DNA of 64,000 bases from Marinicella meishanensis. GTDB taxonomy: Bacteria; Pseudomonadota; Gammaproteobacteria; Xanthomonadales; Marinicellaceae. The notes beneath the pieces are model-generated. The model saw only the letters and a program-made list of their open reading frames with translations, did no database searches and was not told where the DNA came from. Within the stretch, counting starts at the first letter, position 1; the number at the start of each line of letters is the position of its first letter. The stretch covers positions 310,001 through 374,000 of the forward strand of contig NZ_JAIOUV010000003.1 of NCBI RefSeq assembly GCF_019931145.1, read 5' to 3'. Positions 36,803 through 51,515 of the stretch are shown in pieces. A program made the position numbers and the translations under genes.

Positions 36803-37816
36803 TCATTCAAAATCATCGGCAAAAATCAAGTCGTCACCGGACATCAAAACTTCCAGCGTGAATGCGTTGTTGGCTGGGTCGGTGTCGGTGGTGCCAACCG
36901 GCACAATCACCTGTGCGGTGTTGGACAGCGTGCCAGTGGCCGCCACATCCATGGTACCCACCGCCTCAAACACCACTTGGCTGTTGGCCGGTAAGTTGAC
37001 GGACTCAGTCAAGTTGCCATTGCCAGTGGGCATGCCGCAAGCGGCACCGTTGTTGGGCGTACACATCCACTGCACACCGTTCAACTCACTGGGGAAAAAG
37101 TCAATCACACTGGTGGCGTTGGCCGCTGCCGGGCCGGCATTGCTGATGGTGATGGACAAGGTCAAATCATCACCCGGGACATAGGTGGCTGGATCGGCCA
37201 TTTGACTGACGGCCAAATCAACTTCATTGGCCACCACCGGGCAGTCGACCACTGCGCGAATGACGAAATCTCCCGACACCCCCAGCAGACAGCTGTCGAA
37301 CCACAAATTGGGTGGAATGGCGAAGATTGAGTTTTTGCCGGTTTGACAGCCATCGGCATCGGTGACCAGACTGGGGCCAGTTGGTATTGGGGTGTTTTCA
37401 AACTGAAAAGCGATCACATAAGTTTCTCCTTGGGTGACTGGCACAATCAGGGGAATAACGCTGTTCTCATCCAAAAAACGGTATTCATTGAACACCCCAT
37501 CATTCAACACCGGACCCACAATGGTTTCTAATTCCATGCCTGGTTCGGGAAAGGTGCCGGCCTCGAAAATACCAATGCCTTGTTCAATCGTGCTGGCGGA
37601 GCCGCCATTCAATGAACGCCAAAAGATTTGCACCGCCACCAAGTCGCCATCACAGGGCGACTCCAGCCAGGCGGCGCCCAGCTCATTGGCCACAAAGCCC
37701 GATTGGATGGCCCCTTGACTGAAGTCCACCAAGGAGTCGTTTTGCAGGGTGACCTCGGCGGCATCGCTGTGTGACCACAGCAAGCCAAGGAGGCCGATTG
37801 TCATGTGCTTTTTCAT
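36803..37816 (-). CDS. Secreted DUF11-containing protein with DLIFADDFE tail
   Basis: A 337-residue exported protein. The signal peptide ends near SDAA. The first two thirds are a beta-rich domain of unknown type with several Cys (about 50-200). A DUF11-like repeat follows (about 205-325), recognisable by VDLAVSQMADPATYVPGDDL, SITISNAGPAAANAT and TDTDPANNAF. The protein ends in DLIFADDFE. GAGGTG lies before the ATG at 37816. DUF11 proteins are usually outer surface or wall-associated. The same nine-residue tail form ends three other secreted proteins in this window, so it is probably a shared export or anchoring signal (inference). Confidence 0.82.
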   Translation of the reverse strand: MKKHMTIGLLGLLWSHSDAAEVTLQNDSLVDFSQGAIQSGFVANELGAAWLESPCDGDLVAVQIFWRSLNGGSASTIEQGIGIFEAGTFPEPGMELETIVGPVLNDGVFNEYRFLDENSVIPLIVPVTQGETYVIAFQFENTPIPTGPSLVTDADGCQTGKNSIFAIPPNLWFDSCLLGVSGDFVIRAVVDCPVVANEVDLAVSQMADPATYVPGDDLTLSITISNAGPAAANATSVIDFFPSELNGVQWMCTPNNGAACGMPTGNGNLTESVNLPANSQVVFEAVGTMDVAATGTLSNTAQVIVPVGTTDTDPANNAFTLEVLMSGDDLIFADDFE

Positions 37817-38104
37817 GTTTCACCTCTCTCAATCAATGTCACACACCGACCTGGAACAGGCACACACAACTGTAATGACTCAATCAAACTAGCATGATTT
37901 CAGACAGCAAAATGATAAGCCTTTCACAAAAAGTACATCATTGCCCCATTTGACTTGCTGTGAACCCAGCAATGGTCGATATGGCCGGTGAGACAAGCCG
38001 CAGCCATGGCCAGGAATGGTGGATTGGTCACAGTTTGTCATGACTTCACGGAATAAGCTGGGTGATGAATTGTTCACTGGCTTTTTTCGGGTTAAGCTGT
38101 GGTT

Positions 38105-39616
38105 ATGAAGAAGACATTTGCCTTGAGTTTGTTGCTGTGGATGGTGCCGCTATGGGCCCAAGTGGATTGTGCCATCACCCCAGAACGGTCGCTGGCCGGC
38201 GCCATGGTGTTGGGCAATGGCAATCCCGGTTCGGTCAACACCACCATGATCCAAGCGGCGTTGAACCAAGGTGGCCCAATCCGATTCAATGTCGGCCAAG
38301 CACCGGTGGTGATCAATTTAACCAATACCTTATTGGTGACCAAAGGCGCGGTGATTGATGGTGGCGGGGTGGTGACCCTCAGTGGCATGAATCAGCGGCG
38401 CTTGTTTTTGTTGCGCAACACCCAGAACCTGACTTACACCTTCACGGTACAAAACATGCGCCTGATCAATGGTTCCATCCCCAGTGGCAGTGGTGCCGCG
38501 ATCTATCGCTTCAATGAAGGCCCGTGGCAAGCCCTCAGTCTGGAAGCGATCAATGTGGACTTTGCCAACAACCACGCCATTCAAGTGGAACAAGACGGCG
38601 GTGGAGGGGCGATATACGCCACCGGCATGGACCAGGTGTTGATTCACAACAGCACCTTCAGCAACAACTCAGGCAGCAACGGCGGAGCCTTCTATGCTTT
38701 GGGTACCGATGTCATTCGCATCACCGACTCGGTGTTTGATGGCAACCACGCCACCGGCAACAGTGGCAATCCGGGCAATGGCGGTAATGCCGGGGCCATT
38801 GGGGTGGATGGGGCCGAGCGCACCATCAATGTCTGCCGCAGCCAAATCATCAACAACACCGCCCAGGCTTTTGGGGTGGGCTTTTTCTCGGTGATGTATG
38901 ATCAGCAGAGCCTGTCGGCCTTCACCGATGTGCTGTTTGAAAACAACACCAATGCTTTGGATTTTGGCTTGGGCGGAGGGGCTTACATCCAGGGTGGGCC
39001 GTTCATCTTGGATCGCACCAGTTTCATTGCCAATGAATCACGCGGATCAGGCGGTATTTTCTTTGGTCCTGGGGCCAACGGCGAAATGCGCAACAGCACG
39101 GTCTATGGCAACGTCGCCACCAACACCTTGGGTGGTGGCATGTCGATCGACGGTTCGGCCGATGTCACCCTGCGGCATGTGACCATCGTCAACAACCACG
39201 CCCCTTGTGATGTGTGTTTTGCCGGTGGCATCGCCGTCGGTGGCAGCAACTTAACCACTTTGTACAACAGCATACTGGCCAACAACACCGGTGGTAATGT
39301 GTTCAATCCCTGGAACATCCTCAACCCAGTGGCCGGGTTCGACAACCTGCAATTCCCGCAACAGCGACCCAATGGCCAAAGCGAGGTCCAAGCCACCAGC
39401 AACACCTTGTGGCAAGACCCCGTACTCAGCGCCCCGGCTTACTTGGGTGGTTACACCCCGACCATGGCCCTGGCTGACAATTCTCCGGCCATCGACCAAG
39501 CCACCCCAGCCCAGTCCACCGCCACCGATCAGCGCTTGAAACCACGCCACATGACGGCCGATTTGGGGGCTTTTGAATTGCAGGCTGATTTGATTTTCAT
39601 TGACGGCTTCGACTGA
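38105..39616 (+). CDS. Secreted parallel beta-helix protein, choice-of-anchor Q type, DLIFIDGFD tail
   Basis: A 503-residue exported protein. The signal peptide ends near WAQ. The body is a right-handed parallel beta-helix with many Asn-rich rungs (for example IHNSTFSNNSGSNGGAFYAL, VLFENNTNALDFGLGGGAYI, GGMSIDGSADVTLRHVTIVN). The end, DPVLSAPAYLGGYTPTMALA, DNSPAIDQA and TADLGAFEL, matches the choice-of-anchor Q domain as I remember it. The last residues are DLIFIDGFD. ATG 38105 was preferred over GTG 38099 for the signal peptide. Such proteins are usually surface-exposed or released. Confidence 0.85.
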   Translation: MKKTFALSLLLWMVPLWAQVDCAITPERSLAGAMVLGNGNPGSVNTTMIQAALNQGGPIRFNVGQAPVVINLTNTLLVTKGAVIDGGGVVTLSGMNQRRLFLLRNTQNLTYTFTVQNMRLINGSIPSGSGAAIYRFNEGPWQALSLEAINVDFANNHAIQVEQDGGGGAIYATGMDQVLIHNSTFSNNSGSNGGAFYALGTDVIRITDSVFDGNHATGNSGNPGNGGNAGAIGVDGAERTINVCRSQIINNTAQAFGVGFFSVMYDQQSLSAFTDVLFENNTNALDFGLGGGAYIQGGPFILDRTSFIANESRGSGGIFFGPGANGEMRNSTVYGNVATNTLGGGMSIDGSADVTLRHVTIVNNHAPCDVCFAGGIAVGGSNLTTLYNSILANNTGGNVFNPWNILNPVAGFDNLQFPQQRPNGQSEVQATSNTLWQDPVLSAPAYLGGYTPTMALADNSPAIDQATPAQSTATDQRLKPRHMTADLGAFELQADLIFIDGFD

Positions 39617-39634
39617 ACGCACAGCCATCGTGGA

Positions 39635-40405
39635 TCAATCGTCGCGGTTGATCACAAAGGTGGCCACCACCGGCAAGTGATCACTGGCCACCCGGGCCAG
39701 GCGCATTTTGGTGCTGCTGACATGGGTGCAATGCAGTTTGCCGCGGTAGTAAATCCGATCGAGTCCGCCACGAGGCGCGAACGACGGGAAGGTTTTCATC
39801 GCCACTTCGTTGCCCCGTAAGGAGGTGCGGTCGGTGGCACACAAAAAGTCTTTGCCGATGATGAGCAAGGCCCGCAGCATCGAGCGCCAATCATTGAAAT
39901 CACCACCAATGATGCACGGTTGGTTGATGTCCAAGGCGGTGAACTCAGGTGATTTGAACAATTTGCCGGCTTGTTTTTGGCGTTCTTTGGCCGACAGACC
40001 CAGATGCAGATTGAACACCTCTAAAAATTGAAAATCGGTTTTTGATTCACTGATCTGAATGGTCGTGTGCTGGCAACCGCGTTTCTTTTTGTCTTCGATG
40101 CTCAGGTCGATGTTGCTTTGCTTGATGATGGGAAAGCGGCTCAAAGTGGCATTGCCGTAGCGGCCTTGTTTTAAAGTGACATTGTGTCCCAAGGCATGGT
40201 GCTCATAGCCACAATTGTCGGCCAATACCTGGGCCAAATTGAGCTCGTTGGAGCGGGGCACCCCCTCATCCACTTCCTGTAACAGCACCACATCGGCGTC
40301 CAGTGTTTGGATGATTTTGATGATCCGCTCAGGGGCAAATTTGCGGTCGATACCGATGGCGCGGTGGATGTTGTAGCTGAGGACTTTGAAGGTTTTCAAT
40401 GGCAA
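39635..40405 (-). CDS. Endonuclease/exonuclease/phosphatase-fold protein
   Basis: A 256-residue enzyme of the EEP superfamily. The blocks are SYNIHRAIG, VVLLQEVDEG (metal Glu), FNLHLGLS, CIIGGDFNDW (Asp/Asn), GGLDRIYYRG and ASDHLPVVATF (Asp-His), so the catalytic set is complete. It may be a phosphodiesterase or a nuclease; the short form without a signal peptide resembles the YbhP/YafD group. The start is TTG at 40405, without a clear ribosome site, so the N-terminus is uncertain. Convergent with the beta-helix gene, 18 bases apart. Confidence 0.87.
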   Translation of the reverse strand: MPLKTFKVLSYNIHRAIGIDRKFAPERIIKIIQTLDADVVLLQEVDEGVPRSNELNLAQVLADNCGYEHHALGHNVTLKQGRYGNATLSRFPIIKQSNIDLSIEDKKKRGCQHTTIQISESKTDFQFLEVFNLHLGLSAKERQKQAGKLFKSPEFTALDINQPCIIGGDFNDWRSMLRALLIIGKDFLCATDRTSLRGNEVAMKTFPSFAPRGGLDRIYYRGKLHCTHVSSTKMRLARVASDHLPVVATFVINRDD

Positions 40406-40552
40406 TTTTTTGATTTTTTATGATTGTACCAAATTGAGAGATGCCATCAATACCAAAGTCCAACGAGCACAAAACAAGATCGAATTTTTGCAGCTGACCC
40501 ACAGGACTCTGTTATGATGATATGACCAATAACCAGAGAAAAAGGTGGAAAT

Positions 40553-41467
40553 ATGAAAAAAGTGTGTTTATCAATGGCCATGGCTCTCATGGCAAGCAGT
40601 CCCGTGGGTGCTGAAGTCATTTGGGATGAAGGAATTGACGGTGACTTGTCCAATGATCAAGCCGCTCCCACTCCGATATTTTTTGCATTGGACAGCACTC
40701 AGGACACCGTGATCGGCAATGTGGGTGGCGCCAATCCAGGTGAGTTTTTTGATGACATGACATTCGATGTGTTTTATGGATTTTGCTTGGAGAGTGTTTT
40801 GTTGGTGGATTACGTCGCTGATGGCGGCAACACCACTTCGGGCTTCAATTTGTGGGAAGGGCCAGATGCCTTAACCACGTTCTTGGGCAGCACGACCAGT
40901 GGTCCGGCAAACATCGGACAGAATGTGTTGGATGGCACCACGCCGGTATCAGCCGGAACTTACACACTGGACATCCGTGAAGGAACCCCCAACCAATCTT
41001 ACGAAATTGATTACGTGTTGTGTAATGAAGCCTATTACAACGAAGCCTTTGACGGGGATTTTTCCGATGATGACACCACCCCAACTGACTTGGGTGTGTT
41101 GCCACTGACTGACAATCAGATTTCAGGGACCATTGGTGGTGCTGGTGGTTTGTTCGTGGACGCGTTGTCATTTACCGTGCCGACCGGATTCACCGCAGAT
41201 GTGATTCTGCGGGCTTATGTGGCCGCCGGAGGTAATGACACCAGTGGCTTCAACTACTATGAAGGTGTTGGCGTTGGTGGTGCAGTGGTCAGTTCAGCGA
41301 GTTTTGGTGCCACTGATATTGGCACCACCACTTTGACCACAGGGCCGTTACCTGAAGGGACTTATACGCTGGTTCTGCTGGAGGGAACCGAAGGTCAACA
41401 GTATGGATTCGATTTCCAATTGACTGACTTGATTTATGACAATGGCTTTGAATTGATCGTCAGATGA
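40553..41467 (+). CDS. Secreted protein with internal duplication and DLIYDNGFE tail
   Basis: A 304-residue exported protein (signal peptide ending SPVGA) of unknown family. It is an internal duplication with a period of about 136 residues: GGNTTSGFNLWEG (91-103) recurs as GGNDTSGFNYYEG (227-239), and AGTYTLDIREGT (134 on) as EGTYTLVLLEGT. Each unit is beta-rich and acidic, resembling pre-peptidase C-terminal-like beta domains. The tail is DLIYDNGFE followed by LIVR, a variant of the tail in three other proteins here; the extra four residues are unusual. AAGGTGG precedes the ATG. It is followed by a terminator hairpin. Confidence 0.75.
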   Translation: MKKVCLSMAMALMASSPVGAEVIWDEGIDGDLSNDQAAPTPIFFALDSTQDTVIGNVGGANPGEFFDDMTFDVFYGFCLESVLLVDYVADGGNTTSGFNLWEGPDALTTFLGSTTSGPANIGQNVLDGTTPVSAGTYTLDIREGTPNQSYEIDYVLCNEAYYNEAFDGDFSDDDTTPTDLGVLPLTDNQISGTIGGAGGLFVDALSFTVPTGFTADVILRAYVAAGGNDTSGFNYYEGVGVGGAVVSSASFGATDIGTTTLTTGPLPEGTYTLVLLEGTEGQQYGFDFQLTDLIYDNGFELIVR

Positions 41468-49157: not shown

Positions 49158-51515
49158 TCATTCAAAATCGGTGGCAAAAATCAAATCGTCGATGGTTTGA
49201 CACATGCCTGGTACTTGCACGTGGCTGAGGGCCAGGTTATCCAAATACCAGCCGCCATCATTCACCGAACCATCGGTTGAATAACTGAAGCGCACTTCGA
49301 CTTGTTGCCCTTGGTTGGTAGACAAATCCACGGTGTGTTGTTGCCAGCTGTTTTGCACCCCAGAAAATGCAGGTGTGTTTTCATCGAAGCCACATTCATC
49401 TGATGAAGCCCGGAAGGTGTCGGGGTAAGCCGGTGACACGGCCGGCTTGGTCCAAGGTCCGCCGTTGACACTGATTTCTACCAGGCCACCATCCCAACGT
49501 TCTTCGATGTTGTACAAGGTTTGAAAACTCAATTCTGAAGCCTGACCTGGGGTCAGGGTGAACGGTTGTGACGTCAATCGGTTGCACGTGTTGCTGCTGT
49601 TTTGTGACCAGTAACTGCGGCTGCCTTCAAACACTTCATCGGTCACCATTTCCCAGCCCAAGTGCCGCCCGGTTTGGGCAATGCCACCATCACCGACTTC
49701 GGCGCCAGCGGTCCAAGTGCCATCGGCCAGAGGGCCCAAGGGCGAACCAAACAGCTGTAAATTGTTTTGCTCTTCCGCTTGATTGCTGCTGTCTTCAGCC
49801 CGCACCACATAATGATAGGTCTCCTCATGGATCACCGAGAAGTCGGTCCAATTCAGCTGGCTGATGCCACTGGCCACCAAATTGGCTGGACCCGGTTCAA
49901 ACCCTTCCTCGGTGGATCTGTAGACATTGTAGCTGGTGTTCGATTGGCAATATGACGAGGCGGCATTCCATTGCACATTCAAACTGCAGGCTTTATCAAA
50001 TCCATTGTTGATGGCAGCCACGCCACTGAATTCAGGGGCTGCGGTACAGACCCCGGTGGTTTGGGTTTCGCTGCAGGTGCTGCGGGTGAATTCACACAAA
50101 CCATCGGCACTGACTTTGGACACTTGGTAGCCCACATTCACTTGCCCAGAAGCGGTGTTGTCGACATACAACTCGGTGGTAATCTGATTGGCGATTTGGA
50201 TGAAATTATTCGCCGCACAGCCCCCTTCAGAGCGGTATATGGTGTAACTTTCCCCAGCGGCCAGGCTGTCATTCCACGTCAACTCAATGCTGTTGTCGCC
50301 CAGTGCGCGGGCTTGCACGTTGCTGGCCGGGGCCACCACTGGACACAACTTCGGTTCCAGCACGAACAAACCGCCTTGGATGTCTCCCAGGATCACACTG
50401 CCACTGTCAAAAAATGGGTAATTACTCCAGGCCCCACTGAAACCATTGCTGTTGTTGCTGGGGTAGGTGTCAAAATTGGCCACTTCGAACAAATTGCCAT
50501 TGCCGATGTCGCTGATGTCCAACACACTCAGACCGCTGGTGTAATTGGACAGGTAGGCATAGCCACCCTTGATGTATAAATTGTGATCGGTTGAAGCTTC
50601 AGGGCCCAGGTAAGTGCCAATGATGGTGGGGTTATCGAGGTCTTGCATGTTCCAAATGTAGGTTTTGGTGTTGTGACCGAGGTTTTGTTCGTCCAATTCG
50701 TCGTTCATCAAAAAATATTGGTGGTCTTCGGTCAACCAGCCTTGGTGGGTGTACCGCGAATCGCTGTATGGGGTTCTGGATATTTGCACCGGAGCGGCTT
50801 TGTTGGTCACATCCACCAAGGTCATGGTGTCTTCATTGGAGTTGAAACAGATTTCTTTGCCTTGGTGATCGGTATCTGGCCCGTCATAAATGACACATTG
50901 GGCATCGTGGGTGTAGCCATCATCACTGAAACAGCCGGCAAACACCGGCGCCGCGGGTGTGGAAATGTCGATCATGTGCAGGCCGCCGCTGCAATCGGCG
51001 CCCACCACATAGGCATAAGCACTGGCCTCATTGATCACGATGTTGTGGGCATCGCCAAATTCGGTGTAATGGGTGGTGACTGCAAAGGTCACTGGAGGAC
51101 TGGGCACATTGCGCAGCTGAGTCAAGTCAAACACCTGCATGCCATGGCCACTGGCTTCAGAAACGATGTAGGCGTGGTTGTCATGGGTTTTGATGTCGCG
51201 CCAAAAGCTGTTGCTGGTGGCGGTGGGCAAATACCCCAAGTACACCGGTGTGGTGGGTGCTGAAATGTCGACGAACGCCGTGCCATTGGACATGCCCAGC
51301 AAGGCGTATTCTTTGCCATCCAGCGGATCCGTCCAACCCCAAATGTCGTTGCCTGAACCGGTGCCATCACCGAGGTCTTCCAAATGAATCCGATGCAACA
51401 AATCGGTTTCTTCACAGGGGTAAAAATCGGCCATGCCATTGATGCATTCAGTGAATGGGTGGGCATGTAAGCTGCTGACAAACAGGGTCAGGAGGAGGGT
51501 GGTTATGTGTTTCAT
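49158..51515 (-). CDS. Secreted LVIVD-repeat (choice-of-anchor B) protein with DLIFATDFE tail
   Basis: A 785-residue exported protein. After the signal peptide (ending HAHP) comes a beta-propeller of LVIVD-type repeats, about 50-390, recognised by GTAFVDISAPTTPVYLGYL, GLHMIDISTPAAPVFAGCF, MTLVDVTNKAAPV and LSVLDISDIGNG; this is the choice-of-anchor B plan. FN3-like domains follow (about 395-600), then a jelly-roll-like domain (about 620-765). It ends with DLIFATDFE. The DAHNIVINEASAYAYVVGAD repeat block carries likely calcium or metal residues. Function unknown; cell-surface or released. Confidence 0.85.
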   Translation of the reverse strand: MKHITTLLLTLFVSSLHAHPFTECINGMADFYPCEETDLLHRIHLEDLGDGTGSGNDIWGWTDPLDGKEYALLGMSNGTAFVDISAPTTPVYLGYLPTATSNSFWRDIKTHDNHAYIVSEASGHGMQVFDLTQLRNVPSPPVTFAVTTHYTEFGDAHNIVINEASAYAYVVGADCSGGLHMIDISTPAAPVFAGCFSDDGYTHDAQCVIYDGPDTDHQGKEICFNSNEDTMTLVDVTNKAAPVQISRTPYSDSRYTHQGWLTEDHQYFLMNDELDEQNLGHNTKTYIWNMQDLDNPTIIGTYLGPEASTDHNLYIKGGYAYLSNYTSGLSVLDISDIGNGNLFEVANFDTYPSNNSNGFSGAWSNYPFFDSGSVILGDIQGGLFVLEPKLCPVVAPASNVQARALGDNSIELTWNDSLAAGESYTIYRSEGGCAANNFIQIANQITTELYVDNTASGQVNVGYQVSKVSADGLCEFTRSTCSETQTTGVCTAAPEFSGVAAINNGFDKACSLNVQWNAASSYCQSNTSYNVYRSTEEGFEPGPANLVASGISQLNWTDFSVIHEETYHYVVRAEDSSNQAEEQNNLQLFGSPLGPLADGTWTAGAEVGDGGIAQTGRHLGWEMVTDEVFEGSRSYWSQNSSNTCNRLTSQPFTLTPGQASELSFQTLYNIEERWDGGLVEISVNGGPWTKPAVSPAYPDTFRASSDECGFDENTPAFSGVQNSWQQHTVDLSTNQGQQVEVRFSYSTDGSVNDGGWYLDNLALSHVQVPGMCQTIDDLIFATDFE

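Follow-up and report, generated by a model that had tools for sequence, protein, structure and literature searches.

Why should exported proteins with unrelated bodies end in the same few residues? This question is raised by four genes in a 64,000-nucleotide stretch of Marinicella meishanensis DNA (contig NZ_JAIOUV010000003.1; G000:C9:310001-374000 of a 3.99-Mb genome in 15 contigs), referred to here as the window. A sequence-only reading had proposed that their shared tail is a sorting, secretion or anchoring signal, and translation confirmed each of the tails: DLIFADDFE (36806..36832, minus strand; genome match C9:346806-346838) at the very C-terminus of a 337-aa DUF11 protein (36803..37816, minus strand), DLIFIDGFD (39587..39613, plus strand) at that of a 503-aa beta-helix/choice-of-anchor Q protein (38105..39616, plus strand), DLIYDNGFE (41426..41452, plus strand), followed by LIVR and the stop codon, on a 304-aa protein (40553..41467, plus strand), and DLIFATDFE (49161..49187, minus strand) at the very C-terminus of a 785-aa choice-of-anchor B protein (49158..51515, minus strand). 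The second and third tails were also recovered as genome matches. The tail, with the consensus DLIFxDGFE and the nine-residue core D-[LV]-I-F-x-x-[GD]-F-[ED], is apparently a sorting tag on dozens of unrelated exported proteins that has so far gone undescribed; none of six tag strings was found in the paper texts searched, and no description of the tag stood among the matches listed.

The tag across the genome

A tail model was built from an alignment of 25 tails (A2) and searched against the whole genome at E ≤ 10, with 150 of 152 candidates scored. This yielded 95 matches; 88 of them, each on an open frame of its own, have a stop codon no more than 12 residues away. The 25 seed tails had been selected as terminal and are all among the matches; without them 63 of 70 matches are terminal, and 50 of those 63 meet the signal-peptide rule. 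The 88 tagged genes are a lower bound, as the model missed a clear tag, DLIFFSAFD, at C10:198516 in the control sample described below. Conservation over the 88 terminal tags is high, with D in 82, L in 60 or V in 15, I in 87, F in 80 or Y in 7, F in all 88 and E in 59 or D in 23. Among 30 choice-of-anchor Q loci, some of which are neighbours or one protein counted twice, 22 had a tag-like end on an open frame under a loose pattern.

The control sample covered 764 kb (19 % of the genome), consisting of 700 kb picked regardless of tags together with the window; a home-made caller predicted 634 genes in it. The strict pattern D[LVIE]I[FY]..[DGSTNA]F[DE] ended 12 of these genes, all 12 among the 171 classed as secreted, and was never found internally in 214,094 residues; the secreted class was defined by a heuristic signal peptide and no later membrane segment, the heuristic being crude and the gene starts approximate. 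With the window removed, the pattern ended 8 of 582 genes, each of them in the secreted class of 144, and was again never internal. A looser pattern ended 15 genes (13 secreted, one membrane and one cytoplasmic) against 0.49 expected from its internal rate, and among the three outside the strict pattern, chance seems to explain two, and the other, NFIFDADFE, is a possible degenerate tag. When one rule was applied to both groups, a heuristic signal peptide was present in 73 of the 88 tagged genes compared to 278 of 619 untagged genes, and 85 of the 88 had no membrane segment after residue 70 by the same kind of heuristic. The tail is therefore not a product of chance: it is terminal on secreted genes, and the strict motif is not scattered at random through cytoplasmic proteins. 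The shared tail noticed in the window is real, but the suggestion of a local cluster did not hold, as tags are spread over the contigs and the grouping of three within 5 kb looks incidental.

Codon usage indicated the level at which the tag is maintained. Every synonymous codon occurs at each core position, and the codons of the first Asp, the Leu and the Glu are used as in the rest of the genome (for Leu, TTG 0.58 and CTG 0.35, against 0.55 and 0.32 genome-wide), whereas those of Ile, Phe and the second Asp are biased to ATT, TTT and GAT, with their synonyms used too. Selection on the tag acts at the protein level, and a DNA-level repeat was rejected on the strength of this variation.

The bodies were examined in 82 tagged proteins (the four in the window and, from the 84 elsewhere, all but six that exceeded 1050 aa), with starts that are approximate and some bodies truncated by the extent of the fetched stretch. 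They matched 60 Pfam families, each in no more than five members, and 52 NCBIfam families, the commonest NCBIfam body being choice-of-anchor Q (12 proteins), with choice-of-anchor J (2), I (1) and B (1) also present. Among the matches listed (25 of the 60 Pfam and 25 of the 52 NCBIfam families) were subtilase, M14, M64 and reprolysin-like proteases, endonuclease I, an ExeM/NucH-type extracellular endonuclease, lactonase, FG-GAP and immunoglobulin (Ig) domains. On the strength of this diversity the tag was rejected as the last strand of one common domain.

Within the window, three of the four bodies are distinct by family matches: DUF11 in the first protein, which is secreted by the heuristic; NF041518 (1.6e-14) and Beta_helix in the second; and TIGR04312 (1.2e-156; choice-of-anchor B, LVIVD) with PF20773 (5.7e-19; InhA-like MAM) in the 785-aa protein, also predicted to be exported. 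The duplicated beta domain proposed for the exported 304-aa protein stands by eye only, as two similar beta repeats, and neither Pfam nor NCBIfam gave a match for this protein at E ≤ 1; its tag is the sole one in the window with residues after the core, and a structure model made without an alignment was useless (mean pLDDT, the predicted local distance difference test, 38). The 785-aa protein is 72 % and 64 % identical to Marinicella records, and a similar tail is present in the relatives L093 and L094. Its AlphaFold model (6 sequences, mean pLDDT 69.9) placed residues 775-781 in a strand at low confidence, between a linker (769-773) and an end (782-785) that both had pLDDT < 50. An M36 protease was rejected as the body of a window protein, where the C-terminal part alone matches (65.8 bits against a cut-off of 1700). 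Rhombosortase-, myxosortase- and type IX secretion system (T9SS)-dependent M36 models were also listed for a few tagged proteins in the 82-protein scan and, given the partial match in the window, were accorded no weight.

Of the seven matches lying more than 12 residues from a stop codon, four (C1:68520, C12:99592, C15:68315 and C15:171212) sit directly after the signal peptide, as in ...PQQAHA|ELIFGNGFE, with cleavage points read by eye, and none of these four proteins carries a C-terminal tag. Four of seven at the mature N-terminus is improbable by chance (p = 2.6e-5, at an assumed rate of 3 %). M. sediminis, to which PMC7691419 assigns a 4.0-Mb genome within Marinicellaceae, GTDB order Xanthomonadales, has an apparent homologue of the C1:68520 protein (L305; by eye) that carries the tag at the same position, and a protein from another Lysobacterales metagenome-assembled genome (MAG; L304) also has it at the mature N-terminus. 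The remaining three matches were at C12:75289 (13 residues from the stop), at C8:411176 (internal) and at C8:292293 (an inner tandem copy). Tandem double tags were seen twice, after the signal peptide at C15:171212 and near the C-terminus of another protein at C8:292263-292316. The tail thus deserves the name C-terminal for 88 of 95 matches, although not strictly, with 4 of 95 at the mature N-terminus. These copies favour a bound peptide, and the tag's arrangement argues for behaviour like that of a docking peptide rather than of a cleaved C-terminal signal.

Distribution of the tag and of a type II secretion system

A search of relatives found the motif at C-termini in other families of the order as well as genome-wide in M. 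meishanensis. Counted regardless of position in the protein, tag matches at E ≤ 0.1 occurred in 63 of 151 genomes of the order and in all 16 genomes of the genus, with 16-48 matches each. In 30 loci fetched from 12 other genomes of the order, 22 ended within six residues of the core, three carried it elsewhere and five were not recovered by the pattern. Beyond the order the tag is all but missing: in a class sample of 229 genomes, including three of the order with M. meishanensis among them, the two positives were M. meishanensis and a genome with a single match at E 0.06.

A longer tail, IFADGFESGDTSAWSxxVP, was observed in Acidobacteriota and a 'Deltaproteobacteria' MAG (L095, L096, L282, L285, L294 and others), mostly with a fixed length. 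In genomes G377, G378, G379 and G381, exactly 12 residues followed the core in 9 of 16 fetched loci, with four elsewhere and three unrecovered. The short and long forms are likely to share a common ancestry.

The choice-of-anchor B body illustrates how the end of one protein may differ between lineages. Its ends were read in 34 of 79 loci, five of them incomplete, and in further loci from the genome search, with all labels assigned by eye. Marinicella relatives end in the tag (DDVIFIDGFEF and DVIFADGFQQPAVR) and a Lysobacterales MAG in ELFENGFE; a Thermoanaerobaculia MAG and the 'Deltaproteobacteria' MAG end in IFADGFE[ST]GD[TS]SAWSxxVP. Two other Gammaproteobacteria (L086 and L089) have a Gly-rich, hydrophobic stretch with a basic end that is GlyGly-CTERM-like, Bacteroidota loci have a T9SS-like end, and many others, such as actinobacterial ones, have no recognizable signal.

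A co-occurring transport gene was also looked for. The M. meishanensis genome encodes two type II secretion systems (T2SS), both outside the window. T2SS-A (C9:118617-125696; L040 and L041) has the order gspC-gspD-gspE-gspF, then ftsEX, and the second (C8:64004-74519) has the Xps order, E to N and D, as judged by gene order and matches of D, E and F. T2SS-A is a split cluster, with the PDZ-bearing gspC and gspD, gspE and gspF adjoining ftsE-ftsX; other families in the order share the gspC-D-E arrangement, some of them with ftsEX alongside. Its GspD (GspD-A) was profiled because an untagged genome of the same family (G019; family f1, genus g3, 4.7 Mb, rated 100 % complete) had no GspD match at E ≤ 1e-30; this genome also had no rhombosortase match at E ≤ 1e-5.

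GspD-A associates with the tag over the 151 genomes of the order (both in 59, tag alone in 4, GspD-A alone in 24 and neither in 64; Fisher p = 1.8e-17). GspD-A was called from matches down to E 8.4e-63, fragments included, and seven partial matches of family f2 (38-44 % identity, E 4.8e-73 to 3.4e-55) were set aside by hand as not A; counting these as A gave 59, 4, 31 and 57 (p = 4.4e-14). Of the 29 genomes with at least seven tags, 28 have GspD-A. As genomes are not independent, genera were compared within families, and the genus-level test stratified by family gave p = 4.7e-4 (1.3e-3 with the seven f2 matches as A), leaving out the genera of unlisted genomes, all of which lack both tag and A. 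Genera with both and with neither numbered four and four in f12, one and five in f2, and three and one in f1, with f8 mixed. Exosortase, a patchily distributed control gene, showed no association (28 of 63 tagged against 29 of 88 untagged genomes, p = 0.17). The Xps-ordered T2SS is present in two tag-negative genomes (G022 and G007), both of which lack A. GspC-A frames were found 17 times, and all nine that were scanned matched both T2SSC and PDZ (five PDZ matches above Pfam's cut-off and four below it, at E 9e-6 to 8e-5); the Xps counterpart of GspC-A had no match at E ≤ 0.01, PDZ included.

What may read the tag

The proposal that the tail is a sorting, secretion or anchoring signal is by a wide margin the reading best supported, given its terminal position, the exported proteins that carry it, their unrelated bodies, protein-level selection and its occurrence in other families of the order. 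A Sec-type signal peptide would bring tagged proteins into the periplasm, where they would fold and leave exposed a tag, as a rule at the very C-terminus and now and then at the mature N-terminus, that would be bound by an envelope machine carrying the cargo over the outer membrane. The most likely reader would be T2SS-A, through the PDZ domain of its GspC or through its secretin. As the best explanation we put forward, tentatively and from genome comparison, that the tag may serve as a short linear docking tag recruiting exported cargo to T2SS-A. The features expected of such substrates are common among the 88 tagged proteins, 73 having a Sec-type signal peptide and 85 no later membrane segment (heuristic). 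In the T2SS literature, PMC11981180 describes the GspC region that can be a PDZ domain as a likely docking site, with no conserved signal identified, and PMC12369372 reports that deletion of the EpsC PDZ domain blocks export of VesB. The fuller proposal, of a portable linear T2SS export signal that is read by the GspC-A PDZ domain, is usable at either mature end and is shared in longer form by Acidobacteriota, is doubtful as a whole.

Several observations weigh against T2SS-A as the reader. Co-occurrence is no proof, as other genes could share the pattern of loss, and those profiled were GspD, rhombosortase and exosortase. Four tagged genomes lack GspD-A (G118, G048 and G059 are fragmented or incomplete, and G063 is 97 % complete in 130 contigs), 24 genomes with A have no tag match at E ≤ 0.1 (31 with the seven set-aside matches), and the long-form genomes G377-G379 have weaker secretin matches only, with no GspD above cut-off. 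The reach of the tail model may explain part of the mismatch in genomes with A and no tag. One of these, G058, has two degenerate tags by eye (EQVFQDRFENG and SGDIFSDRFQ) in 400 kb and 307 genes, and nothing resembling a tag was seen in 395 kb and 281 genes of G022, which lacks A; C-terminal counts of the core pattern were not significant in either (2 against 0.7 expected and 1 against 0.35). Classical PDZ ligands carry a free carboxylate, to which N-terminal tags and residues after the core are ill suited. About 3 kb downstream of gspF in M. meishanensis a tagged gene begins, and another lies beside gspC in G110, but the two neighbour proteins have no homology, and conserved linkage to T2SS-A was rejected. 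Of the two other choice-of-anchor B proteins of the M. meishanensis genome (L088 and L090), the one whose end was read, L088, is untagged. Lastly, in PMC12369372 the T2SS determinant of VesB is an Ig fold and its GlyGly tail is dispensable for export.

The main rival, in our view possible but itself doubtful, is surface retention, whereby proteins exported by an ordinary route, through either T2SS, would dock non-covalently, through the tag, with an outer-surface or matrix receptor, in place of the anchors of their homologues. It would account for a choice-of-anchor B body with GlyGly-like or T9SS-like ends elsewhere, as labelled by eye in L086, L089 and Bacteroidota, for the choice-of-anchor Q, J, I and B bodies of the tagged set (12, 2, 1 and 1 of 82) and for a tag at either end; however, the association with T2SS-A would need another cause, and no receptor candidate was found, though none was systematically sought. 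C-terminal processing, in which a sortase-like enzyme would cleave or conjugate at the tag as in CTERM systems, is improbable. The strong C-terminal preference (88 of 95) and the fixed 12-residue extension of the long form (9 of 16 loci) would suit it, but nearly all tags lack a membrane helix or basic end, the N-terminal copies occur without a C-terminal one, and the genome offers neither an exosortase match nor a rhombosortase above cut-off.

Less probable still is a structural remnant without a sorting role, either the first strand left over from a jelly-roll domain since lost or a final strand that completes the body. IFADGFESGDTSAWS seems to resemble the start of jelly-roll domains, and the low-confidence AlphaFold strand at residues 775-781 of the 785-aa protein would agree with this; against it stand the 60 Pfam families in 82 proteins, the N-terminal copies and a strict motif that was never internal in 634 genes. 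A repeat or terminator translated by chance can practically be dismissed, as the bias to ATT, TTT and GAT is outweighed by the use of all synonymous codons in the core and near-genomic usage at the first Asp, Leu and Glu. Were T2SS-A to read the tag, this would be a common linear signal in a class for which PMC7949064 and PMC11981180 report none. The choice of T2SS cargo is an open question that becomes directly testable with a tag on at least 88 proteins and a strong association with one T2SS. Even as a retention signal, the tag would predict where dozens of proteins in each genome of Marinicella and its relatives are located.

Comparison with known signals

The earlier view that the tail is not PEP-CTERM, GlyGly-CTERM or a T9SS domain was borne out. 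Over the last 40 residues of the 88 tagged proteins the median peak hydropathy was 0.81, with a 15-residue stretch above 1.6 in four, and a basic residue (K/R) follows the motif in four. Cysteine was not among the seven commonest residues in any of the 11 core columns. The T9SS C-terminal domain (CTD) model had no match in the four window proteins, and across the 82-protein set the check covered the families listed (25 of 60 Pfam and 25 of 52 NCBIfam). No tail-specific Pfam or NCBIfam model was among the matches of the four window proteins, nine residues being near the limit of such scans, and four short strings, of which two were real C-termini and two invented, hit no NCBIfam family. Exosortase had no match at E ≤ 1e-6 in the M. 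meishanensis genome and the best rhombosortase match (TIGR03902) reached 44.3 bits against a cut-off of 84, so both were rejected as partners of the tag there; in a panel of 50 genomes, rhombosortase was above cut-off in two, G013 and the long-tag genome G378.

Encapsulin cargo-loading peptides are likewise short motifs at the ends of unrelated proteins; their cargo is cytosolic, whereas the tagged cargo here is exported. Among the processed signals, GlyGly-CTERM with rhombosortase (signal model TIGR03501) is close: it too is confined to certain lineages and marks the C-termini of many unrelated proteins with signal peptides in a genome, and a GlyGly-like tail is found on a choice-of-anchor B body elsewhere. 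PMC12369372 ties it to type II secretion in Vibrio. Our tag differs in lacking a Gly-rich motif, a membrane helix and a basic end, in occurring also at the mature N-terminus, in the lack of a rhombosortase above cut-off in the M. meishanensis genome, and in number, with 88 tagged proteins against up to thirteen per genome as given in PMC3237569.

PEP-CTERM with exosortase shares the many-to-one design and dozens of members per genome, but has a tripartite architecture of PEP motif, helix and basic end that our tag lacks, in a genome without an exosortase match. MYXO-CTERM with myxosortase also has dozens of members per genome, and differs by an invariant cysteine and a helix. The T9SS CTD is similarly a C-terminal signal on sequence-unrelated cargo, with homologous bodies in Bacteroidota; however, it is a folded domain, and here a nine-residue motif is found in a gammaproteobacterial host. 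The PDZ-type GspC systems (EpsC/VesB and OutC/PelI) resemble the proposed one in their folded, Sec-exported cargo and in a GspC with a PDZ domain. The published determinants lie within the fold (Ig domain, loops), unlike our tag, and according to PMC7949064 T2SS cargo apparently has no common linear sequence; in PelI, an exposed loop that is itself of nine residues is reported to act as a signal and to contact both GspC and GspD.

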